Shown here one piece after another: positions 1,455 through 64,000 of a stretch of 64,000 bases of DNA. The notes below the pieces were generated by a model. That model did not search any database, was not told the DNA's origin, and saw only the letters and a program-made list of their open reading frames with translations. Every line of letters begins with the position of its first letter. The stretch's first letter is position 1. The stretch covers positions 1 to 64,000 of IMG/VR virus record IMGVR_UViG_3300046007_008377; one strand, written 5' to 3'. Source of the DNA: a virus. The position numbers and the translations under genes were made by a program.

Positions 1455-2762
1455 ATGCCATTATTAAACGTCCCTGGAGTTGTATTAACTCCTTCGCCTA
1501 CAAAAGTTGCCACTCCGACTAATTACATTAGCGATAGTGAGTACAATTTATTAACTCAGTACATTCCTGAGTTGGAAGCTCAAATCATAGATAGATTTGG
1601 CTCGCAAATGATTACTGGTATGCTTGCCGAATTAGGTAAGGAAAGTCCGTTTCAAGCGGATTTAATTAAATGGAACGAAGAAGGTCGTCTTACTCAATTG
1701 GCTGAAGGCGTTACTCGCGCTGCCGATGTGTTTACATCTAACGCTCACACTTTCAGACTTAACGAAACTATTTCTGTTAGAAATGCAGATGGTTCTGTAG
1801 TTAAGAAAGGTCAAATTACTGCTGTTACGACTAACGGATTTACCGCTTTATGTGGTACAGGAACTTGGACAGACGTAGGTACTACTGCTCTTACTGTTTA
1901 CGCTTATTCTAATGAGTATGCTAAAGGCGCCGAGTTTTTAGGAGGTGGTCTAAACAGCCGAGTTGAACAATTCACTCAAAAACCGATAATTATTAGAGAG
2001 TATTTAAAAGAAACTCGTTCTAACTTAGCGTTGCGTACTTGGGTTGATACTGGAGAAGGGTACTTATGGTACTTTAAAAATCTAGGAGATACCAAAAAAC
2101 GTTTTAGCAATGCTATTGAAAACGGTCTTATTTTGGGAGAAAATTGGGACGGAGATTTATTAGCTTCTGGAGTTGAAGGTACTCAAGGTTTGTTTTCTTG
2201 CGCTGACGAAGGTAATATCTTTGAAGGACCAGCAGTTGATTTAGATGATTTTGATTCAATCATTGACAGATTTAATGCTCAAGGTATGATTTCTGAAAAT
2301 TACATCTACGCTACTTCTGCTCAAAATCGTTTGATTGATCGTATGATTAAAGCTGAAAACGTTACTGGTTCTGCTTGGGGTGCTTTTGACAACAAAGAGC
2401 AAGGTATTAAATTAGGATTTAAAGATTTCAATTACGGAAATTACAATTTCTACAAATGTAACTGGAGATTTTTAGATAATCCTACAACTGAAGGTTCTGC
2501 TGTTGGAGCAACTAAAACTCACGCATTATTCGTTCCTTCGGCTTCTAAAAAGATTTACGATGTAATGGAAGGAAAATCTGCTACCGTGCCAATGCTTCAC
2601 GTTAAATACAGAGCGTCTTCTGTTGTAAATCGTAAATACGAAATGACCATGAGAGATTGGGCTACAGGAACTAACAAAGCTGACGTTAAAGAAACTGAAT
2701 TTTTGACAGAAAGAGCGTTGGTTGTAACTGGGCGTAACAATCTTTTGCGATGTGTTGGATAA
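1455..2762 (+). CDS. major capsid protein
   Basis: This 435-aa protein has the length and composition of an HK97-fold capsid protein: few charged repeats, Gly/Thr-rich beta segments near residues 95-150, and no cysteine clusters. It lies between a scaffold-like gene and a connector gene and is followed by a strong terminator. The N-terminus begins with hydrophobic/proline residues (MPLLNVPGVVLTPSP). Residues 205-340 (WYFKNLGDTKKRF onward) look like the P-domain core. The motif-level resemblance is to capsid proteins of Bacteroidetes podoviruses and crAss-like phages. The call rests on context plus general similarity; structure prediction would settle it. Confidence 0.8.
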   Translation: MPLLNVPGVVLTPSPTKVATPTNYISDSEYNLLTQYIPELEAQIIDRFGSQMITGMLAELGKESPFQADLIKWNEEGRLTQLAEGVTRAADVFTSNAHTFRLNETISVRNADGSVVKKGQITAVTTNGFTALCGTGTWTDVGTTALTVYAYSNEYAKGAEFLGGGLNSRVEQFTQKPIIIREYLKETRSNLALRTWVDTGEGYLWYFKNLGDTKKRFSNAIENGLILGENWDGDLLASGVEGTQGLFSCADEGNIFEGPAVDLDDFDSIIDRFNAQGMISENYIYATSAQNRLIDRMIKAENVTGSAWGAFDNKEQGIKLGFKDFNYGNYNFYKCNWRFLDNPTTEGSAVGATKTHALFVPSASKKIYDVMEGKSATVPMLHVKYRASSVVNRKYEMTMRDWATGTNKADVKETEFLTERALVVTGRNNLLRCVG

Positions 2763-4886: not shown

Positions 4887-7800
4887 ATGGCACAAATTAA
4901 AAACATATTTTCCAAAGGCACAGTTCAAAAAGATTTGGACGAAAGATTTGTTAGTCCTGATGAACTAATTGACAGCGAAAACGCTATTGTAATAACTTCT
5001 GAAGGCTCTAATGCTGGCGTATTGAAAAACGTTACCGGCAATATAAAAAAGACAAATTTTAATATTCCTGGAGCCAAAACAATAGGTAAAGGCACATTGC
5101 CTTCAAAAAACAAAGTTTACAATTTTATTTCTGGAAATATTCATGATTATATTATTGAAACAGATGTAACTACTTGGCAATCTGTAATTGTTGTTCAATC
5201 TACAGTTGGAAAATTACTAAATTTTAATCCTAATAAACGAGTAACTAATGTAGATATTATTATTGACCCAGAAGGCAATGGTGATTTGTTGTGTTTTAGC
5301 GGAGACAACAATCCGCCAAGATGTTTAAATATTCAAACTGCTAAAAATTGGGGAGTTGACGGATTTTCAGAACAAGAAATTTCACTCATTAAAGCTCCAC
5401 CTTTATTTCCAATTACGTTTACTCCTTTAATTTCAACGGAAAATCCTAAAGCAAATTTTTTAGAAGATAGATTTTTGTCATTTGCATATCGTTATAAATA
5501 CACAGACGGACAATATTCGGCTATTTCTACTTGGTCTGAATATTTTTTTATTCCTGGAGTTTTTAATTTAGATTTTGACACATTTGAAAATTTAGGGATG
5601 TTAAATATTTATAATGCCGTTAATTTAACTTTTAATACAGGAGCAACAGATGTAGTAGGATTGGATTTACTATTTAAATTGTCTAATGAATACACTCCTT
5701 ATGTAATAGATAAATTTATAAAAGCAGATGAAGATTGGGGTAATAATCAAGACATAACTTTAGAGTTTAATAATTCTAAAGTTTACGGAATATTACCTGA
5801 AAGCGAATTTTACAGAAGTTACGATAACGTTCCTCACGAATCAATTTCTCAAGCAATAATAGGTAATAGAATTGCTTACGCAAATTATTTAGAAGACCGC
5901 GATTTAATTGATTCTAACGGAAATAAAGTAATCATGGATTATTCTTTAGAATTAATTGCCAATAATGTTTCCGAAACAAATATAGCCGTACAAAGTTTAC
6001 CGATAAACTACAACTACGGAGGAATTCCAATAACTTTAGACGACGGATTAATTAGTTTTGATCTTAGTTCTGTTTCTTTTATTGCAGGATCTGGAATTTT
6101 TATTGATTTTGATTTAAAAAGCAATTCGGAAAACAATGTGTTTAAAAGCACTTTTATTTATACTTTAGTATCTAATTATGCTAATTTAAACGATTTTTTT
6201 GCAAACTCCGATTTTTTAATTGAATTACAAAATTACACGTTTTATTTTGAAAATAATGGAGGAATTGTATTGCCTTTTAATTATGTTCCTCCTTATGTTG
6301 TAGAACAAGGATTTGACGCTGTTGTGGTTGGAGATTCAATAAATATTACATTTCCAGTAATTAAATATGAAATATTAGGAACGCCAAGCAATACATTTAT
6401 TTATGATTATTTTTACGATGAAAACACATTTGTTGTTGTTAAAGACATAGTAGTTGCGACATCATTAAAATCATTAAGAAGTTACGAAATTTGCATGTTA
6501 TATAGAGATGCTCAAGGAAGAAAAACTACCGCATTAACAAGCGTTAAAAATACATTATTTATTCCTAACGAAAATTCTATTACTCAAAATCAAATAAAAG
6601 TTATAGTCCCAACAACTCAATTGCCTCCTACTTGGGCAGACACTTATAAATTTGGAATAAAATTTAACAAACAAAATTACGAAACAATACCAATCAACAT
6701 TTTTTTTGTAGACGGTATTTTTCGTTGGATAAAAATTGATGGTGAAAACATAAACAAAATTAAAGAAGGTCAAATATTATTAGTAAAAAGAGACGCTAAC
6801 GGACCAGTTTTAAATGTAGTCAGAGTAAAAGTTTTGGAGTTAAAACAACAACCTTCTAACTTTTTAACTACTAATGCAATAACAACTATTGAGCCTTCTG
6901 GATTGTATGCTAAAATACAATCTAGTAACTATCAAATGGAATATGGTTTAAATGAATTTGTAAGATACCAACAAAACCAAGACACTTACAATGATAGACC
7001 TTTTGCTTATCTTGGAGATTTTACTATTTTAGATAATAACGGAAATAAAATTGATAGAACAATTAATCAAGGCTCAACTATTAATTTTAATTTTTCAAGT
7101 AATTATAGCGCCGATCCTCCATTTGTAGAATTTGTTAAAACGTATATTGCCCAAAGAACTTATGATAATTTTGAAGATTTTTTTAATATTCAAGTAGTTC
7201 CTGATGGATTTGCTTCTACAAATTACCCAGATAAAATTTACAATATAGTTTTACAAAGAGGGAATTACAATCCGCCATATTTTACACCTGACTCAAATGG
7301 TTTTTTATGGTTAATAGTAGAGGGTACTGAAGCGGGTAACGGAACAACAAGAAGAGGTTTTATAGACGCTACGCTAGATATTAGATATGTTTCTGGGATA
7401 TATGTTTTTGAAACAACTCCTATTGACGCAGACCAACAAATATTTTACGAAACTCCAGAAGTTTATAAAGTAATTTCTGGGCAGCACGAATTTGTTAATC
7501 ATACTCTTACTAAAACATACAATTGTTTCTGTCAAGGTAATGGAGTTGAAAGTTTTCAAATTAGAGATGCTTTTAACGAAAGATATTTAAATGTTGATTT
7601 TGTTCCAACAGCAGTTAGCGAGGACGAATACAGGCAGGTGCGCAGATTTAAAGATATTACTTATAGCGGAATATACAATTCTACTACAAATGTAAATGAG
7701 TTAAATGCTTTTAATTTATCATTAGCAAATTTTAAAGATGATATGGAAAGTAATTACGGCCCTATTTACAAAATGCGTGGTAAAGACACAAACTTAGAAG

Positions 7801-8882
7801 TTTGTCAAGAAGATAGAGATTCTATTGTGTTTTACGGAAAAGATATGCTTTTTAATGCCGACGGAACCACTAACTTATCTCGTATTCAAGATGTTTTAGG
7901 ACAGCAGAAAGTTTACGAGGGAGAATATGGTATTTCTACTCATACTGATAGCTATGATTACTATGAAAATACTTCCTATCATACTGATTTTAAGCGCGGA
8001 GTTGTTGTTAAAAAAGGCGGTAATGGATTGTTTGAGATTTCTGCTTTAGGAATGAGAACTTATTTTAAAAAGCTATTTAGAGATAATACTATAAATGAAA
8101 TAATTGGCCGATACGATCAATTTTACGATTACTATTTGCTTAACATCAAATACACAGATAAAAACAATATTTCAAAATATGTAACTTGGGCATTTTCTGA
8201 CAAAGTTAATGGTTGGCTAACAAGGATTACTTTTAATCCAGAAGATATGACTAGAATAAACTCGCATTTTGTATCTTTTAAAAATGGAGAAATTTGGCTG
8301 CACAATCAAGATACTTTGTTTAATACTTTTTATGGAGTTCAAACAGATACATCTTTTCAATTTAATTTTAGCCAAGAACCAAGTGCTAGAAAAATATTTA
8401 AAGCATTATCAATAGAAGGAACTACTAATTTGCAAATTGCCTGCGAAACAGATTTAGAAAAAGGATATGTAAACAATGTAGATTTCGAAAAGAAAGAAGG
8501 TGTTTATTATGCGTATGTAAGAGGTAAAAACGGAGAATTGAATACTTCTCAGTTAAGTTTTCAAGGTATTGGAGAATGCGTTGTCAATGTATTGACTTTA
8601 GAATTTGCTTTTGAATTAGATTCTATTTTATCTGTTGGAGATGTAATTTTAAATTCAAATTTGCAAATTGTAGGAACGGTATTAAGTAAAACGTCTAATT
8701 CACTAACATTAGACACAGTAAACAATATTGTTTCTGGAGATTATGTATTAGCCACAAAACCTGAAAGCGTTCAAAAACAAGGAATTTTAGGATATTTTAT
8801 GAAAGTAGGCGCGTCTTTTTCAAGCAATACACAACAAGAAATTTACGCGATAAATTCAGAGGTAATAAAGTCGTACATGTAA
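4887..8882 (+). CDS. large tail tube/nozzle (muzzle/stabilisation) protein
   Basis: A 1331-aa, strongly beta-rich protein, low in charge and rich in Asn/Phe/Tyr. The N-terminal 60 residues (FSKGTVQKDLDERFVSPDELIDSENA) match the opening of nozzle-type tail proteins of podoviruses (T7 gp12/P22 gp10 role; muzzle protein in crAss-like phages), where a beta-propeller platform follows. It lies 2 bp downstream of the connector gene, which is the usual order. It should form the distal tail tube through which DNA leaves. It has no enzymatic motif. Confidence 0.7.
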   Translation: MAQIKNIFSKGTVQKDLDERFVSPDELIDSENAIVITSEGSNAGVLKNVTGNIKKTNFNIPGAKTIGKGTLPSKNKVYNFISGNIHDYIIETDVTTWQSVIVVQSTVGKLLNFNPNKRVTNVDIIIDPEGNGDLLCFSGDNNPPRCLNIQTAKNWGVDGFSEQEISLIKAPPLFPITFTPLISTENPKANFLEDRFLSFAYRYKYTDGQYSAISTWSEYFFIPGVFNLDFDTFENLGMLNIYNAVNLTFNTGATDVVGLDLLFKLSNEYTPYVIDKFIKADEDWGNNQDITLEFNNSKVYGILPESEFYRSYDNVPHESISQAIIGNRIAYANYLEDRDLIDSNGNKVIMDYSLELIANNVSETNIAVQSLPINYNYGGIPITLDDGLISFDLSSVSFIAGSGIFIDFDLKSNSENNVFKSTFIYTLVSNYANLNDFFANSDFLIELQNYTFYFENNGGIVLPFNYVPPYVVEQGFDAVVVGDSINITFPVIKYEILGTPSNTFIYDYFYDENTFVVVKDIVVATSLKSLRSYEICMLYRDAQGRKTTALTSVKNTLFIPNENSITQNQIKVIVPTTQLPPTWADTYKFGIKFNKQNYETIPINIFFVDGIFRWIKIDGENINKIKEGQILLVKRDANGPVLNVVRVKVLELKQQPSNFLTTNAITTIEPSGLYAKIQSSNYQMEYGLNEFVRYQQNQDTYNDRPFAYLGDFTILDNNGNKIDRTINQGSTINFNFSSNYSADPPFVEFVKTYIAQRTYDNFEDFFNIQVVPDGFASTNYPDKIYNIVLQRGNYNPPYFTPDSNGFLWLIVEGTEAGNGTTRRGFIDATLDIRYVSGIYVFETTPIDADQQIFYETPEVYKVISGQHEFVNHTLTKTYNCFCQGNGVESFQIRDAFNERYLNVDFVPTAVSEDEYRQVRRFKDITYSGIYNSTTNVNELNAFNLSLANFKDDMESNYGPIYKMRGKDTNLEVCQEDRDSIVFYGKDMLFNADGTTNLSRIQDVLGQQKVYEGEYGISTHTDSYDYYENTSYHTDFKRGVVVKKGGNGLFEISALGMRTYFKKLFRDNTINEIIGRYDQFYDYYLLNIKYTDKNNISKYVTWAFSDKVNGWLTRITFNPEDMTRINSHFVSFKNGEIWLHNQDTLFNTFYGVQTDTSFQFNFSQEPSARKIFKALSIEGTTNLQIACETDLEKGYVNNVDFEKKEGVYYAYVRGKNGELNTSQLSFQGIGECVVNVLTLEFAFELDSILSVGDVILNSNLQIVGTVLSKTSNSLTLDTVNNIVSGDYVLATKPESVQKQGILGYFMKVGASFSSNTQQEIYAINSEVIKSYM

Positions 8883-15828: not shown

Positions 15829-16323
15829 ATGAAATTAGAAACGTTAAGTCCAGAAATAGTAAAATTGCTTACTAACAGATTGTCAAATGAGTATTCTGCT
15901 CAGTATTTGTATCAACACTTAGCAAATTGGTGTGAAAATGAAGGCTATTTAGTTGCTTCTGAGTTTTTCAAAAACGAAAGCAATGATGAACTATCTCATG
16001 CTAAAAAAATTCAAAAGTTTATGACTGACTGGAATGTTCTTCCAGTTTTGCCAATTATACAATCTCCAAAAGCAGAAATTTCAGTATTGGCTGATTGTAT
16101 AAATTCAGCCTATGCTGCTGAATTGGAATTATACGAACTTTACGAGGAAACTTCTAACAAAATTTTGAAAATTGGAGATACTTGTGTTTTTGATTTTCTT
16201 ATGTTTTTCAGAGATGTTCAGCAAAAAAGCGTTGCTGAATATGCTACAAAATTAAATATGCTAAACGGTATTGACGTTAACAATAAATTCCAAATGCTTT
16301 CTATTGAAAAGAAACTTTTTTAA
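15829..16323 (+). CDS. ferritin-like iron-storage protein
   Basis: A 164-aa four-helix ferritin. Visible ligands are E21, E54 and H57 (the ELSH form of ExxH), E100, and Q131 or Q132. These match the ferroxidase residues of bacterial ferritins; the position equivalent to E130 of E. coli FtnA appears to be Ser134. Length and helix spacing are normal for the family. In the cell it would oxidise and store Fe(II). The gene is embedded in the virion operon, 1 bp after the large internal protein and 9 bp before the polyvalent protein. That setting is unusual and raises the question of packaging or protection from oxidative damage. Confidence 0.85.
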   Translation: MKLETLSPEIVKLLTNRLSNEYSAQYLYQHLANWCENEGYLVASEFFKNESNDELSHAKKIQKFMTDWNVLPVLPIIQSPKAEISVLADCINSAYAAELELYELYEETSNKILKIGDTCVFDFLMFFRDVQQKSVAEYATKLNMLNGIDVNNKFQMLSIEKKLF

Positions 16324-47207: not shown

Positions 47208-47942
47208 TTATTGTTTTTCTTGAAAGTCTTTCGCTTCTTCCGAATTGACAAATTGGGCTATTTCTGGTTCGCGAATTGATAGTCCCGCGTAATTCAATAC
47301 CTTGGTTAAAAAAGGAATAAGCAAACTCTCATGTAAATCTACATCTTGCAAATCACTTGCGCTTGGATTGTAAATAGGGTTGCCGCCAACAGTTATAAAA
47401 GTCCATTTTGGAGCAAGCGGCGTTCGCAAATAGAAAAGCTCTAAATAATAACCGCTTGGAACCAAAGGAGCAGGTTTAAACTTAGTTCCAATTTTCTCAT
47501 AAACAGGAAACATTAAACTTGGAGCAGTCATATCTGAATTTACAAGTACGTTTAATTGGCGCTTTGATACCAATTCTATATCGACTTTCTTTTTTGTTGT
47601 ATTTTCTACCAAAGACAAATTTTCTACGCGGTAAAGATTGTTATTTGTAAACGACCAAGTTTCATCTGCTGAATTAAAAACAAATTCGCTTGGAATAGAG
47701 TACGTTGCGTAATAATCAATCTGCTCTCCTACATTAGCTTTTAGATTTGCGTACTCTGAACCTGTTAATCGTCTGTTCTCACGATTAAGCATTTGGTTGT
47801 ACTGAAAAAATAGGTTTTCAAAAATATCTCTTTGGGCTAAATTGCAGAAAATATCCAATTCTTGCGGCGCAATGTACCCCAAGTTTGATTTATTCATTAT
47901 AAACAAAACCGAATTTCTAATAAAGTTAACGCTAATTGCCAT
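47208..47942 (-). CDS. ring/connector-type virion structural protein
   Basis: A 244-aa protein. The N-terminus FIRNSVLFIMNKSNLGYIAPQELDIFCNLAQRD is the opening of a family of Bacteroidetes phage structural proteins that build tail or portal-associated rings. The rest is beta-rich (NYRVENLSLVEN; LELFYLRTPLAPKW). It is on the opposite strand, about 43 kb from the first connector, separated from other virion genes. A -7-like TACCTTTA lies upstream of its start. Function inferred from family resemblance. Confidence 0.55.
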   Translation of the reverse strand: MAISVNFIRNSVLFIMNKSNLGYIAPQELDIFCNLAQRDIFENLFFQYNQMLNRENRRLTGSEYANLKANVGEQIDYYATYSIPSEFVFNSADETWSFTNNNLYRVENLSLVENTTKKKVDIELVSKRQLNVLVNSDMTAPSLMFPVYEKIGTKFKPAPLVPSGYYLELFYLRTPLAPKWTFITVGGNPIYNPSASDLQDVDLHESLLIPFLTKVLNYAGLSIREPEIAQFVNSEEAKDFQEKQ

Positions 47943-48893: not shown

Positions 48894-49196
48894 TTAAATT
48901 GATAGAATTAAGTCCGCGTAATAGATAGTTACGTACTCAATTGCGTTTCTAGTAAGCGGATTTGCTTTGAATTTGTCGTAAATTACTGTATCGCCGAGTT
49001 TTACATCGTCTTTTGGGCATTCCGTACCCAACGAAACAACAATTCCTTTACGATATTTCTCGTTTTTGTCAACGCTTGACGAAATATTAAGGCCGCTTTG
49101 CGTTTCGTTTACGTTTTCAATTTCTTTTAGCACTACTACATAATTTAGCGCGCGACCATTAAACTTTTCTACAATTTCTTTAGTTTTTGCGTCCAT
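48894..49196 (-). CDS. groES: phage co-chaperonin (GroES-like)
   Basis: A 100-aa Cpn10-like protein: NYVVVLKEIE, the mobile-loop-like ETQSGLNIS region, YRKGIVVSLGTEC, then KLGDTVIYDKFKANPL. These are the strand and turn positions of GroES. It follows groEL by 0 bp, the reverse of the bacterial groES-groEL order. It would cap the phage GroEL or compete with host GroES for its cavity. Confidence 0.8.
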   Translation of the reverse strand: MDAKTKEIVEKFNGRALNYVVVLKEIENVNETQSGLNISSSVDKNEKYRKGIVVSLGTECPKDDVKLGDTVIYDKFKANPLTRNAIEYVTIYYADLILSI

Positions 49197-50756
49197 TTAA
49201 TTAGCGTTTTGAATTAATCTAGCATTTGTGAGAACGTTGTCAGTCATTAGCATTGTATTACTTGCAGAAACAGCGTTAATTAAGGCGTGTTTGATTGCTT
49301 TTGTACTATCCACAATTCCCGCGTCAAACATATTGGTTTTTTTGTAATTTTTTACGTCATATCCGATTGGATAATCTCCAATTGCTTGTCTAACTTCTCT
49401 TAAACTTGCGTTTTCCATTAATTTATTAATTGGAGATACACAAACTGTTTTGCAAATATCTCCTAATTCTAATTTTGAAGCGTCAAATAAAGCAATTCCT
49501 CCGCCAGCAACAACTCCTTCTTCTTTTGCAGAACGAACAGCAGAAACAGCATCGTCTACACGATCGATTTTTTCCTGCAATTCACTTTCGATAATTGATC
49601 CGATTTTAATAATAGAAACACCGCCTACTAATTTAGCAATTCTTTCGCGCAAATACTTTTCTTCTACTTGGCTTTTGGTAGTTTTGATTGTTTCTTTTAT
49701 TTCAGCAATTTTACCATCTACAATTTTTTGAACATAATCGTTTTTTACCGAAGTGATAATTGTATCGGCTTTACCAATGATAATTTTTTCACATTCGCCA
49801 ATAAATTCACCTTCTCTACCTTCAAAATTATCTCCAGACAAAGTAGTAATTGGCTGCGTTCCTAAAATACAAGCAAGGTCATTGATAAAATCAAGACGTT
49901 TTTTACCAACTCCAGGCGCGTGAACAACACAAAACGGTACGCCTTTCTGAATTACATTTTGAAGCACTACATCTCTAACTGCATGTGCCATATCGGAAAT
50001 AAATACCAGCGGTCTTTTGTTGTCGTGTGCATATTGCATAAATGGAAGCACTTGTTTTACCGTTTTAAATTCAATAGTAGAACAAACTACAAGCGGATTT
50101 TCGTCAAAAACACAAGTTCTATCAGAAAACACGTTTACAAATCGCTCGTCAGAATATCCTGATTCTACGAGTGTTCCGTCTATAAATTCTAGGTAAGATT
50201 CATCTGTATTACTACGCGAATGAGCAACAGAACCGTCAACCCCTGCTTTAATATATGCTTCACTTACAATTTTTGCAATTTCTACATCGCCATTGGCAGA
50301 AGTCAAGGCTACATCATAAATTAATTTGTCGGTAATTGGAGTTGATATACTATCTAAATGCGCTAATATTAAATCTCTTGATTCTTCAACTTCTCGCTTT
50401 ACATCAATTGGCGATTTTCCATTTTTTACAGCCTCAACCGAATTTTTGAAAAACGCATAAAGTAAAATAATTGTATTTGTAGTGCTATCTCCTGCAAATT
50501 TTACAGTTTTTTCACTTGCTTCTTTAGCAATTTCTAAAGCAATATTTTCTACTGGATTTTCTAAAAAAATTGATTGGAGTGTTTTGTAACCATCTTTAGT
50601 AGGCTCGGCTCTACCATAATCAGATTCGATAAGTACCGTTCTTCCTCGATAACCGTAAGTAGAAGAAACCACATCAGAAGCTTTTTTAAGACCTGACAAT
50701 AACAAGTCTTTTGCATCATCACCAGAGATAATGTCTTTTAAAATTCTTTCGCTCAT
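49197..50756 (-). CDS. groEL: phage chaperonin (GroEL-like)
   Basis: A 519-aa group I chaperonin. The ATP-site GDSTTN contains the essential Asp (D90, equivalent to D87). EPTKDGYKT near residue 51, VDDAVSAVRSAKEEG and VVAGGGIALF near residue 410 are conserved. The protein lacks the GGM-repeat tail and ends TNARLIQNAN. The apical domain is divergent. It probably folds a phage structural protein. It has its own TAAATTTG promoter at 50792. It forms a pair with groES and lies next to the HNH element. Confidence 0.9.
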   Translation of the reverse strand: MSERILKDIISGDDAKDLLLSGLKKASDVVSSTYGYRGRTVLIESDYGRAEPTKDGYKTLQSIFLENPVENIALEIAKEASEKTVKFAGDSTTNTIILLYAFFKNSVEAVKNGKSPIDVKREVEESRDLILAHLDSISTPITDKLIYDVALTSANGDVEIAKIVSEAYIKAGVDGSVAHSRSNTDESYLEFIDGTLVESGYSDERFVNVFSDRTCVFDENPLVVCSTIEFKTVKQVLPFMQYAHDNKRPLVFISDMAHAVRDVVLQNVIQKGVPFCVVHAPGVGKKRLDFINDLACILGTQPITTLSGDNFEGREGEFIGECEKIIIGKADTIITSVKNDYVQKIVDGKIAEIKETIKTTKSQVEEKYLRERIAKLVGGVSIIKIGSIIESELQEKIDRVDDAVSAVRSAKEEGVVAGGGIALFDASKLELGDICKTVCVSPINKLMENASLREVRQAIGDYPIGYDVKNYKKTNMFDAGIVDSTKAIKHALINAVSASNTMLMTDNVLTNARLIQNAN

Positions 50757-50784: not shown

Positions 50785-50792
50785 CAAATTTA
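50785..50792 (-). promoter_or_regulatory. promoter -7 element (TAAATTTG) of groEL-groES
   Basis: CAAATTTA on the plus strand, 29 bases before the groEL start. Confidence 0.65.
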
Positions 50793-50843
50793 TCATTTTG
50801 AAATTTGATAACCAAATGTTTATACACTATCAATTTTAATTAT

Positions 50844-60174: not shown

Positions 60175-60420
60175 ATGGGTCAAAGAATAAGAAAATTGTC
60201 AATTGGTGCGGAGGTAAAAGACCGATTTCATTATGTCGTAAATGATGAAAGAGCAGTTTATACCGCTACAATAAACAACGTGTCGGAAAGATTTAATTTA
60301 GCTCAAATTATCGAATGTGAAACTCATTATCAGCTTTGGCTAAAAAAAGCAGATGAAATTTTTCATTGGAAAGACGAGCCTAAAAACAATATCGTGACCC
60401 CAGAATATTTTCTTGATTAA
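60175..60420 (+). CDS. small hypothetical structural-module protein
   Basis: An 81-aa protein (MGQRIRKLSIGAEVKDRFHY, then ECETHYQLWLKKADEIFHW). Unknown. TAATG overlap with the next gene. Confidence 0.5.
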   Translation: MGQRIRKLSIGAEVKDRFHYVVNDERAVYTATINNVSERFNLAQIIECETHYQLWLKKADEIFHWKDEPKNNIVTPEYFLD

Positions 60421-60968
60421 TGAAGGCGCCTTTTAAGTTTATTATTTCACCAATTAATAACGAGCAATACGTCAATCAAATTGGCAATTTAATCGTTAAC
60501 ACAAGCGTAGAAGAGGCTGAAGATGTTCAAAGAGTTGGAGTTGTAGAATCTTTACCTTTTGGCTATTGTGGATTTATTCAAAAAGGAGATTTAGTAGTAG
60601 TTCAACACAACGTTTTTAGAATTACTTTTGACGATTGGGGATTTCCAAGACAATCTGATAACTTTATTAAAGACAATTTGTTTGGCGTTACTCCTGATAT
60701 TATTTACGCGGTTGTTCGTAATGGTAAAATAATGTCAAGCGACGATTACATTTTTGTAGAACCTATTGTAGAAGAAGATTTTTGGTTAGGAAAACAGACT
60801 TTAAAAAATCAAGGATTTGCTAAGTATGTAAACCCAACAATGGAAAAACAAGGGGTAATCAAAGGCGCGCGAATAGCTTTTGGCAGTTTTTCAGAATATT
60901 TATTTGAAATTTTTGGAGAGAAACTTTATTTAATGAGGAATAAAAAAGTAATGGCTATTTTGAATTAA
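60420..60968 (+). CDS. conserved structural-module protein
   Basis: A 182-aa beta-rich protein (ESLPFGYCGFIQKGDLVVVQHN, then FITFDDWGFPRQ-like and IVEEDFWLG). It has a small barrel-like core that faintly recalls co-chaperonins (GxxxGDxVVV). Function unknown. It lies between the tail spike and terminase genes. Confidence 0.5.
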   Translation: MKAPFKFIISPINNEQYVNQIGNLIVNTSVEEAEDVQRVGVVESLPFGYCGFIQKGDLVVVQHNVFRITFDDWGFPRQSDNFIKDNLFGVTPDIIYAVVRNGKIMSSDDYIFVEPIVEEDFWLGKQTLKNQGFAKYVNPTMEKQGVIKGARIAFGSFSEYLFEIFGEKLYLMRNKKVMAILN

Positions 60969-61728: not shown

Positions 61729-64000
61729 ATGAAAAATTTATCTCAAGACCTTGAAGTAGCTATTTCAAATGCTATTGAAACTCTTGGTTTTTCCGTTGAC
61801 ATTGACAAAGTTAATTCTGAAAAGCTAGAGGCTTTAATGAAATCGAAAGCAGATTCGTTTTTATACACAAAAGAATTAATTTTAAGTTGGGAAAATTCCT
61901 TAAATGCCCCAAGCGATAAAAAATTATACAAATACATTACAGACCTCGTAAAAGCAGGGGAAAGTTCAATTATAGATTTACGTCTTGCTTTAAGAAAAAA
62001 AATTGATACCGATTTAGTTGATGTAGAAAAAATCGGAGTAAGTATCAAAGCAAAGCAAATTATTTACAAAGCTATTACAGAGCTTGATTCGGGATTGATT
62101 CAATTAAAAATGCAATTGCAATCTAATTCTATAGACTTAAAACAACGCGAATTTAAAATAGGTTACCCAGAGCGATTTGCTAATCAAGAATTTTATCCTA
62201 AAAAAGATTATTACAAAGAATGGTACGATGAAAAAAACGATTGTATTATTCTTGACCCAAAAGGAACTGTAGGAGAAATTATAGTTTTAGACAACTTACG
62301 ATTAGCATTACCTATTGTTCCAAAAAATAAAAAAGACATTTTATTTAGTGATTTACCAAAGGAAGAACAATATTGGCGAAGAATTGACCCGCCTAAGGGA
62401 TTAATGCCAGAAACCGAAGACGCTTGGTCTACATATATATTAGAAGAATTTCGCAGACGTAGAGAAGGCGTATGGTTTATGAATAATGGCAAAGCAGAAT
62501 GGCTTACTCCAACGCATTACATGGGGCTACAATGGAACCGCATGCTTGATACTGGAGGATTTAAAGAATTTCGTTTAGCACAAAGAGACATATATTATTT
62601 TTGCCTTGCAGTAATTATTGACCCAAGAGCAGTTGGTATATTATTCTTGAAAGGACGTAGAACAGGATTTACCGAGGTAATTCTTGACCATTTTGAAGAT
62701 TTTTCTACTTCTACTAAAAATGCTTTATTTGGAATTACTTCAAAAACAGGTTCAGATGCTTCTGAAGCGTTTTTAAAATATTCTTACGGATTGCAAAACC
62801 AACCTTTCTTTTTTATTCCGGTAGTAAAAGGAAAAATTGACGATAGAAATAAAATGGAGTTTGGCAAAGTTTCAGATTCCTCAAAAGTTGCTAAAAAGAA
62901 AAAAGATACCTCAACCGATGATTATTTAAACACAAAAGTAGATTGGCTAAACACTACTACGCTATCGTATGACTCTAAAAAATTATTCATGTATCTTGGC
63001 GACGAAGCAGGAAAATGGGAAAGACCAAATAATTATGAAGACCATTGGGCAAATATAAAACCTACGATGATTACAGGAGGTAGAGTTGTAGGAACGGCAT
63101 TTATCGGATCAACAGTTGGCGCTGTAGAAAAAGGCGGAAAAGAATTTAAGAATTTATATTACGGATCTAATGTTTCAAAAAGAAATTCCAATGGCAGAAC
63201 TACTACCGGATTGTATTCTTTTTTTCTTCCTGCTCATAAAAATTACGAAGATTATACAGATAAATACGGCGTTTGCCATATTACTGTAAATCCAGGAGAA
63301 CATTTTTATAATGCTCAAGGAATAAAAATGACAATTGGTTCATTGCAATATCTTGAAAACGAATTTAAGTCTGCAAAACAAATGGGCGGTAAGCACCATA
63401 ATAACGTAAGAAGATTAGACCCTGTTACAGTTGATGATGCGTTTAGAGATGAAAGCAAAGGTAGTTTGTTTGATTTAGATAAACTTAATGACCAAATTGC
63501 CCATAACAACAATATAGAAATTGAAAACACATTAGTACGAGGTAATTTTGAATGGGAAGGTGGCGTCAAAGATACATCTGTTGTTTGGAGACCAAATAAT
63601 AAAGGAAGGTTTTTGATTGCTTGGTTACCGCCAAAAGAACTTCAAAACCGTTTAATTGAAAAAAACAATATGTTTGGCGGCAGAAGTAAACACCCATTAA
63701 ACGAAGATTTAGGTTGTTTTGGAGCAGATACTTATGATATTGACGCTACGGCAGGTGCTAAATTAGAAAACACAGAAAACGGCTCCGAATTTGATTCTGG
63801 ATCTAAAGGCGCAATTAGCGGCGTTACCAGTTTTTCAATGAAAAATGTTCCAAGTAATTTCTTTTTTTTAGAGTATATTGCTAGGCCACAATCTGCTGAA
63901 ATATTTTTTGAAGACGCGCTTATGGCTTGTGTTTTTTACGGCATGCCAATTCTTATAGAAAGCAACAAGGCAAGAATGTTATATCACTTTAAGAATCGCG
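61729..64000 (+). CDS. terL: terminase large subunit (3' end beyond window)
   Basis: At least 757 codons, open to the last base. A Walker-A-like GRRTGFTE (near residue 312) is preceded by LFLK, as in large terminases of this lineage. Walker B FMYLGDE is near 422. TAFIGSTVGA is a coupling-type motif near 460. The later segment EIFFEDALMACVFYGMPILIE is the start of the nuclease-side region. The N-terminal 150 residues are helical and longer than in T4-type terminases. The gene is incomplete: its nuclease domain and stop lie outside. Confidence 0.9.
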   Translation, partial: MKNLSQDLEVAISNAIETLGFSVDIDKVNSEKLEALMKSKADSFLYTKELILSWENSLNAPSDKKLYKYITDLVKAGESSIIDLRLALRKKIDTDLVDVEKIGVSIKAKQIIYKAITELDSGLIQLKMQLQSNSIDLKQREFKIGYPERFANQEFYPKKDYYKEWYDEKNDCIILDPKGTVGEIIVLDNLRLALPIVPKNKKDILFSDLPKEEQYWRRIDPPKGLMPETEDAWSTYILEEFRRRREGVWFMNNGKAEWLTPTHYMGLQWNRMLDTGGFKEFRLAQRDIYYFCLAVIIDPRAVGILFLKGRRTGFTEVILDHFEDFSTSTKNALFGITSKTGSDASEAFLKYSYGLQNQPFFFIPVVKGKIDDRNKMEFGKVSDSSKVAKKKKDTSTDDYLNTKVDWLNTTTLSYDSKKLFMYLGDEAGKWERPNNYEDHWANIKPTMITGGRVVGTAFIGSTVGAVEKGGKEFKNLYYGSNVSKRNSNGRTTTGLYSFFLPAHKNYEDYTDKYGVCHITVNPGEHFYNAQGIKMTIGSLQYLENEFKSAKQMGGKHHNNVRRLDPVTVDDAFRDESKGSLFDLDKLNDQIAHNNNIEIENTLVRGNFEWEGGVKDTSVVWRPNNKGRFLIAWLPPKELQNRLIEKNNMFGGRSKHPLNEDLGCFGADTYDIDATAGAKLENTENGSEFDSGSKGAISGVTSFSMKNVPSNFFFLEYIARPQSAEIFFEDALMACVFYGMPILIESNKARMLYHFKNR

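Follow-up and report, generated by a model that had tools for sequence, protein, structure and literature searches.

A Bacteroidota podovirus carries a GroEL, a roofless GroES and a tandem GroES homologue, which probably form a phage-dedicated chaperonin system

This report concerns three genes of the chaperonin and co-chaperonin families in the IMG/VR virus record IMGVR_UViG_3300046007_008377. The window, that is the whole stretch of DNA analysed, comprises bases 1–64,000 of this record, which has a length of 69,008 bases. The virus is a podovirus of Bacteroidota, related to Elemovirus and to the Pervagoviridae. The three genes are:

49197..50756, minus strand: groEL, encoding a group I chaperonin of 519 amino acids and 56.8 kDa, tailless and with shortened equatorial inter-ring segments (Pfam, PHROG, solved structures)
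48894..49196, minus strand: groES, 100 amino acids, with the roof hairpin deleted and the mobile loop SGLNI (Pfam, PHROG)
60420..60968, plus strand: tandem (Cpn20-like) co-chaperonin homologue, 182 amino acids (PHROG 13932 'co-chaperonin GroES', E 6.7e-13)

An original prediction, made from the sequence of the window, had stated that the phage encodes a GroEL of 519 amino acids and a GroES. Matches to Pfam, PHROG and solved structures confirmed this, and the gene at 60420–60968 adds a third, GroES-related component which that prediction did not contain. The groEL product was recognized by Pfam Cpn60_TCP1 (E 9.8e-33), by PHROG 5725 'chaperonin groEL' across residues 7–514 (E 5.6e-100) and by solved GroELs, that of E. 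coli among them (E about 1e-67 to 1e-76). Its predicted structure, built from 55 virus sequences, had a mean pLDDT of 87 and matched 8wuc_A, the GroEL of a GroEL-GroES football complex, with a Z of 45.4 and an rmsd of 2.8 over 508 residues. Thus, both the Cpn60 homology and the fold of a group I chaperonin extend over the full length of the protein.

The GroEL residues D52, D87, D398 and D495 are retained in 11/11 members of the window's subclade. G32 and the GGG at 414–416 are likewise retained in the window and in all 11 members, save for one G416A. The tree rows AR9, EL and L187 (loci of our set are numbered with the letter L) were left out of this residue alignment. We take the residues named to form the nucleotide site, and the apical residues treated below to bind substrate and GroES. 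Since the four aspartates are kept, ATP hydrolysis by the phage GroEL is plausible. At the apical positions 199, 203, 204, 234, 237, 259, 263 and 264 the window reads Y R F L M R L Q, compared with Y Y F L L L V V in E. coli. Y203, L259 and V264 are therefore replaced by R, R and Q, and five of the eight positions are still hydrophobic, with a helix register that is possibly off by one. The apical domain had been described as diverged. This divergence is real but modest: in comparison with 19 Bacteroidota GroELs, the apical domain is on average 25.7% identical, the equatorial parts reach 31–33% and the second intermediate segment 46%.

The absence of a GGM tail was also correctly seen, the protein ending in ...LTNARLIQNAN. 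Beyond E. coli position 522 the window subclade (11 sequences) has 4–11 residues and 30 bacterial sequences have 15–34. The GGM run is missing from some Bacteroidota GroELs as well (e.g. L217 and L218), so that its absence is not diagnostic and was dropped as a viral signature. The equatorial domain differs in length. The stretch 422–448 counts 15–18 residues in the subclade (median 15) versus 25–28 in bacteria (median 27), and the column of S463 is empty in 11/11 subclade members. We take this stretch and S463 to lie at the ring-ring contact, on the basis of the SR1 mutant. The short contact segments suggest that contact between the rings may be weakened or rebuilt, a hint for which only the segment lengths and S463/V464 were used. 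The inter-ring residue E434 was dropped as a marker because its column is empty also in 6/30 bacterial rows. DNA identity between the window and L005 groEL is 88–97% in codons 1–400, 56–71% in codons ~400–480 and 86% or more thereafter, as if an equatorial segment near the ring-ring contact had been exchanged and the gene were a mosaic.

The groES product contains a Cpn10 domain (Pfam E 2.3e-10; 40.8 bits against a cut-off of 21.1) and matched PHROG 3188 'co-chaperonin GroES' (E 2e-10). Its roof segment of 10 residues is as long as that of T4 gp31 (10) and shorter than that of E. coli GroES (17), and the roof hairpin is absent as in a gp31-type lid. Medians were 8 residues in 77 viral relatives (8–15) and 16 in 36 bacterial proteins (11–17); both sets contained only matches shorter than 125 amino acids, the viral ones in addition with E <1e-10. 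In the mobile loop the tripeptide LNI replaces I-V-L, which makes the central residue polar. Among 67 GroEL/GroES pairs, D or N occurs in the loop in 11, all of which have R, Q or E at GroEL position 259, and none of the remaining 56 pairs does. Since the 11 co-changed pairs all belong to one clade, they count as a single event. The joint change of apical face and lid loop suggests a pair that would be private to itself. Both genes are under purifying constraint, with dN/dS values of 0.105–0.175 for groEL and 0.104–0.18 for groES (4 comparisons each, the one with L008 being near saturation).

The tail of GroEL sits in the chamber floor. A roofless GroES together with a tailless GroEL suggests a roomier chamber. 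For gp31, which is without roof loops, an excerpt of PMC6318259 gives a chamber that is ~8% larger and is believed to accommodate gp23, a capsid protein of 56 kDa.

The stop codon TAA of groEL abuts the ATG of groES with 0 bases between them, exactly the gapless same-strand order, groEL before groES, that had been noted. When virus contigs were scanned with a family alignment, 366 relatives were obtained, and the 80 best of them were retained as loci. In 78/80 of these, groES lies downstream of groEL on the same strand within at most 3 kb (EL-to-ES order). The exceptions are L042, which ends directly after groEL, and L075, which is without a groEL open reading frame (ORF) of at least 400 amino acids. 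In the 13 loci closest to the window (L004–L010, L017–L022) groEL and groES directly adjoin or overlap each other (-37 to +3 bases). By contrast, groES is upstream of groEL in 32/32 Bacteroidota chromosomal loci, namely the best 30 from a sample of 61 genomes plus L201 and L202. Thus, the order is indeed inverted compared with the Bacteroidota loci examined. It is a trait of a large virus clade, and the idea that it is peculiar to this phage was dropped.

A phylogeny against host chaperonins, proposed as a check of the original prediction, did not place the gene with host groEL. In a 96-row tree (LG+C20, SH-aLRT) the window is nested within virus-only sets with a support of 99–100, and 55 EL-to-ES rows are separate from bacteria (SH-aLRT 89). 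In a 35-row tree, 16 EL-to-ES virus rows lie on one side of a branch (SH-aLRT 96.8). A single clade of the window and Bacteroidota was rejected by the AU test (p-AU 1.6e-44). The window GroEL is 29–31% identical to 19 Bacteroidota GroELs, which are 70–97% identical among themselves. Consequently, the window's groEL is of virus-only ancestry and not host-derived in recent time; a host-type state, with groES upstream and GroEL nested in a host clade, was not found. Phages seem to have gained groEL repeatedly, since the 96-row tree contains host-like GroELs in Bacteroides phage DAC22 and two Vibrio phages. The chaperonins of EL and AR9 are distant on long branches of this tree. A GroEL-like match was present in 238/50,697 phage records. 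In DAC22 (L239, 2218–4117) groES lies upstream of the host-like GroEL gene, and both genes are annotated as 'hypothetical'. L187, a Bacillota metagenome-assembled genome (MAG) contig of 156 kb, has a 468-aa chaperonin-like gene (5001–6368) with a 117-aa GroES-like gene downstream. This chaperonin sits on a very long branch and is not clearly viral.

The tandem gene lies two genes upstream of the terminase gene, with one 200-aa gene in between. Its assignment rests on PHROG 13932, profile comparison and a predicted model. The model (42 sequences) had a mean pLDDT of 82 with weak values at residues 11–40. Residues 103–182 matched the GroES 8wuc_a with a Z of 10.5 (78 residues, rmsd 2.1), so that the C-terminal part has a GroES domain fold. 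Over residues 1–182 the model matched the chain of Chlamydomonas Cpn20 (Z 10.1, 156 residues, rmsd 4.7), which was also the top match in Foldseek (E 1.5e-3, TM 0.53 versus ~0.3 for single GroES chains). A profile of the C-terminal half scored 41.9 against bacterial GroES, compared with 15.5 for the best of 30 column shuffles. The N-terminal half scored 24.3 against viral GroES versus 20.1 for the best of 100 shuffles, in the right register and with a low probability of 14–26%. The N-terminal domain carries a mobile-loop-like IGNLIV, and in the sequence of the C-terminal domain no obvious mobile-loop motif was found. No Pfam family reached its cut-off, Cpn10 remaining below it (E 0.012), and a comparison of the N-terminal with the C-terminal half gave nothing (probability 0.7%). 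A single-sequence search of solved structures (to E 10) returned neither GroES nor Cpn20, no profile search having been made. For this reason we describe the protein as built like Cpn20 and do not call it a member of that family. From model and profiles, the protein is predicted to be a tandem GroES of which the second domain is surely, and the first domain likely, GroES-like.

Homologues of the tandem gene occur in 77 phage records. The best named relative of its product in a comparison with predicted viral structures is the 'Chaperonin cpn10' of phage phi18:3 (200 aa). Homologues lie before the terminase in Elemovirus, phi38:1 and Panino, and one gene apart in MW202828. For co-occurrence 43 of 80 and 30 of 80 loci were searched, picked mainly for longer contigs. 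The tandem gene was found in 41/43 groEL-bearing virus records, the two misses being records of 39 and 32 kb. Conversely, groEL was found in 18/30 tandem-bearing records (7/7 of those >45 kb, 11/23 of the shorter ones). Eight phage records were inspected; five had both genes, and phi14:2, immuto and DAC22 had groEL alone. Both may simply be core genes of one podovirus lineage, and co-occurrence is no proof of partnership.

The nearest GroEL of an isolate is that of Elemovirus, phages of Flavobacterium sp. BAL314 (e.g. MT497078), with 38% identity (37% for the 182-aa protein). The layout is the same: groES follows groEL on the same strand, the structural genes occupy the opposite strand, and a second cpn10 gene precedes the terminase. 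The groEL-groES pair and a 'chaperonin cpn10' are already annotated in these isolates, and the record names no tandem structure. The window GroEL differs in its shorter equatorial loops and the R259/Q264 apical face, and the window's lid loop is LNI. The main text of PMC7077304 on Baltic Flavobacterium phages does not mention chaperonins. The Cellulophaga phages phi38:1 and Calle_1 of the Pervagoviridae and Maribacter phage Panino have, like the window, a GroEL and a tandem gene before the terminase. In phi38:1 and Calle_1 there is a GroES-like gene too, but this cpn10 lies upstream of groEL with one gene between, and their GroEL, unlike that of the window, falls outside the EL-to-ES clade.

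T4 gp31 resembles the window GroES as a phage co-chaperonin with a missing roof hairpin and an equal roof segment. It differs in its partner, the host GroEL, and in its mobile-loop span (30 versus 27). We know of no phage GroEL in T4. Chloroplast Cpn20, the best full-length structural match of the 182-aa protein, has two GroES-like domains per chain, as predicted for the phage protein; the two share 11–13% identity, and one phage domain seems to be without a mobile loop. A review calls the Cpn20 type chloroplast-specific (PMC5780408), Cpn20 and Cpn10 are described as forming lids of seven GroES domains (PMC5780408, PMC3542282), and one Cpn20 is also given for Plasmodium (PMC3542282).

Viral chaperonins in viromes were reportedly described by Marine et al. 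in 2017. Parts of the published work place group I chaperonins of marine viromes in viruses of Bacteroidetes, with 36 phi38:1-related genomes carrying GroEL (PMC5332604), and list 'chaperonin cpn10' as a core gene of the Pervagoviridae. For the marine viral GroELs of Nishimura et al. 2017, the excerpt notes no tandem lid of the kind predicted here. A literature search on tandem GroES in phage gave papers on chloroplast and Plasmodium Cpn20 and no title on a phage tandem among the matches listed. Accordingly, the phi38:1-related viral GroEL, the cpn10 of Pervagoviridae and the Elemovirus pair are already known, and a tandem reading of the phage cpn10 gene was not found in the excerpts of the literature searched.

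The setting of the three genes is formed by the following features:

1455..2762, plus strand: likely major capsid protein, 435 amino acids, 48.1 kDa (PHROG 13704 'virion structural protein', E 7.5e-84; weak match to Phage_cap_E below the cut-off)
47208..47942, minus strand: virion structural protein, 244 amino acids (PHROG 14543), the next same-strand gene after groES in L005–L008
48060..48863, plus strand: free-standing HNH/AP2 homing-endonuclease-like gene (NUMOD4/HNH/AP2), between groES and the gene of the 244-aa protein
50785..50816, minus strand: Bacteroidota-type promoter-like element TTTG-N20-TAAATTTG, 29–60 bases before groEL
60175..60420, plus strand: small gene, 81 amino acids, immediately upstream of the tandem gene (by position)
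61729..64000, plus strand: terminase large subunit, 883 amino acids, continuing to 64380 of the record (PHROG 6681, E 3.3e-139)
64473–66914 of the record: portal, downstream of the terminase (PHROG 6547, E 1.9e-103)

The likely capsid gene follows terminase and portal, as it does in phi38:1 and Panino. The endonuclease-like gene is present between groES and the gene of the 244-aa protein in the window and L004 and is not there in L005–L008; it therefore seems to have been inserted recently next to the chaperonin operon. phi38:1, Elemovirus and Panino have a small gene at the place of the 81-aa gene, a likeness by position only. The element TTTG-N20-TAAATTTG corresponds to what we take to be the Bacteroidota-type promoter consensus. 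Its position before groEL is shared by the window and L005–L008 (5/6 sequences examined), and L009 lacks it. With 15 matches in the window versus 8.0 expected, a lone match means little, and the evidence lies in the constant placement, among close kin.

The window also contains an integrase-like gene (PHROG 1). At 4887–8882 (plus strand) a virion protein of 1331 amino acids has a crAss-type muzzle C-terminal domain (PF25729, E 6.2e-10), though the phage is nearer to Elemovirus and Pervagoviridae. A ferritin-like protein (15829–16323, plus strand; Pfam Ferritin E 6.1e-17) is encoded in the structural block directly upstream of a 2718-aa gene for which no PHROG match was found. The ends of the record (13–1014 and 67559–69008) repeat each other with 93% and 87% identity, the second copy having an extra ORF of 126 amino acids. 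From this terminal repeat, the record seems to be longer than one full circle of ~67.5 kb, with strain variation.

Taken together, we consider it probable, though well short of certain, that these genes encode a phage-dedicated group I chaperonin system, in which a GroEL ring is combined with a GroES lid of its own and a tandem co-chaperonin homologue and which most likely folds virion proteins. A dedicated pair had been proposed in the original prediction, and this agrees with the virus-only ancestry, the catalytic residues kept in 11/11, the dN/dS of 0.10–0.18 and the joint change of apical face and mobile loop. In that prediction, the pair would serve a phage protein, perhaps the major capsid protein or the nozzle, that the host chaperonin may fold poorly. 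In such a system, groES would be translationally coupled to groEL and provide the ring with its own lid, and the tandem homologue would be made from the packaging/portal/capsid block. The phage GroEL would bind ATP and unfolded virion proteins. The lid would cap it by fitting its altered mobile loop (LNI/LDI) to the altered apical face (R259/Q264), and, as with GroEL-gp31, the chamber would become larger or more open through the loss of roof hairpin and tail. As first client, the capsid protein may be considered, or some other virion protein produced in large amounts in the late phase of infection. Client identity, ring number and composition of the lid are points that we infer.

Several observations weigh against such a system. 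The likely major capsid protein of 48.1 kDa would fit a normal chamber, so that size alone does not account for a need. The window GroEL has Y for P33 and N for T91, and its ATP site is thus not wholly canonical. Since the GroES of DAC22 is also roofless (8 residues) beside a host-like GroEL and the roof of phi38:1 GroES is near-normal (15 residues), roof loss is not bound to membership in the EL-to-ES clade. The co-change of lid and ring is confined to one clade without independent repeats. Finally, the N-terminal domain of the tandem protein is weakly GroES-like in sequence and its model is weak at residues 11–40.

The role of the tandem protein can be read in other ways. The GroES fold might have been reused for a packaging or portal-vertex protein that is no lid, the phage GroEL using its own GroES alone. 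We regard this as possible but unlikely. Its gene adjoins the terminase/portal region, distant from groEL and on the opposite strand, with a position before the terminase that is conserved across these podoviruses, and the C-terminal domain lacks an obvious mobile-loop motif; yet the full-length match is to Cpn20, a working co-chaperonin, IGNLIV resembles a mobile loop, and the gene accompanies groEL in 41/43 records and in 7/7 long ones. It is rather unlikely that the tandem protein caps the host GroEL in the manner of gp31 and that the phage pair works separately. RB49 CocO is presumably also a lid for host GroEL. An excerpt of PMC6318259 describes T4 gp31 as working with host GroEL, but all 7 long tandem-bearing records also have a phage groEL. 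The groEL/groES pair itself could be a general folding or stress booster of the infected cell and no folder of virion proteins, as its own promoter-like element and its place outside the main structural block would allow. We think this improbable given the long virus-only ancestry and the re-shaped lid and apical face, which are unlike a borrowed host gene, and given that the next same-strand gene in relatives encodes a virion structural protein.

That the phage GroEL works without a lid is very improbable. The chaperonins of the jumbo phages EL, OBP and AR9 do so according to excerpts of PMC9598537 and PMC7185714, and the inter-ring segments of the window are shortened (median 15 versus 27 residues for 422–448; S463 column empty in 11/11), but groES is downstream in 78/80 relatives and EL and AR9 are far off in the tree. 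That a host groESL operon was captured recently and its genes swapped afterwards is hardly credible. Such a capture would explain the common protein family, but it is at odds with 29–31% identity to Bacteroidota GroELs that share 70–97%, and it was rejected for the hosts sampled by trees, identity and AU test (p 1.6e-44).

Within the preferred reading of a phage-dedicated system, three tandem proteins and one single GroES could form a mixed lid, in which seven GroES domains would face the seven-fold ring as in chloroplast Cpn20/Cpn10. This is a doubtful extension by analogy. If true, a virus would have independently evolved a heteromeric chaperonin lid, and with the tandem part coming from the packaging/capsid block, lid composition and chamber chemistry would shift while virion proteins are made. 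In a more sober reading, GroEL and GroES would be private to the phage and fold virion proteins, the tandem protein being a second lid or a packaging-block protein of GroES fold.

Chaperonins were discovered through phage morphogenesis mutants, and the probable system described here bears on the question why some phages carry whole chaperonin systems. Within one virus lineage, a GroEL occurs together with a GroES lacking its roof and with a tandem homologue of GroES. As cultured relatives exist (Elemovirus, phi38:1, Calle_1 and Panino), client, ring number and lid make-up are directly testable. If a tandem GroES exists outside plastids, this would point to more than one origin of the Cpn20 design.

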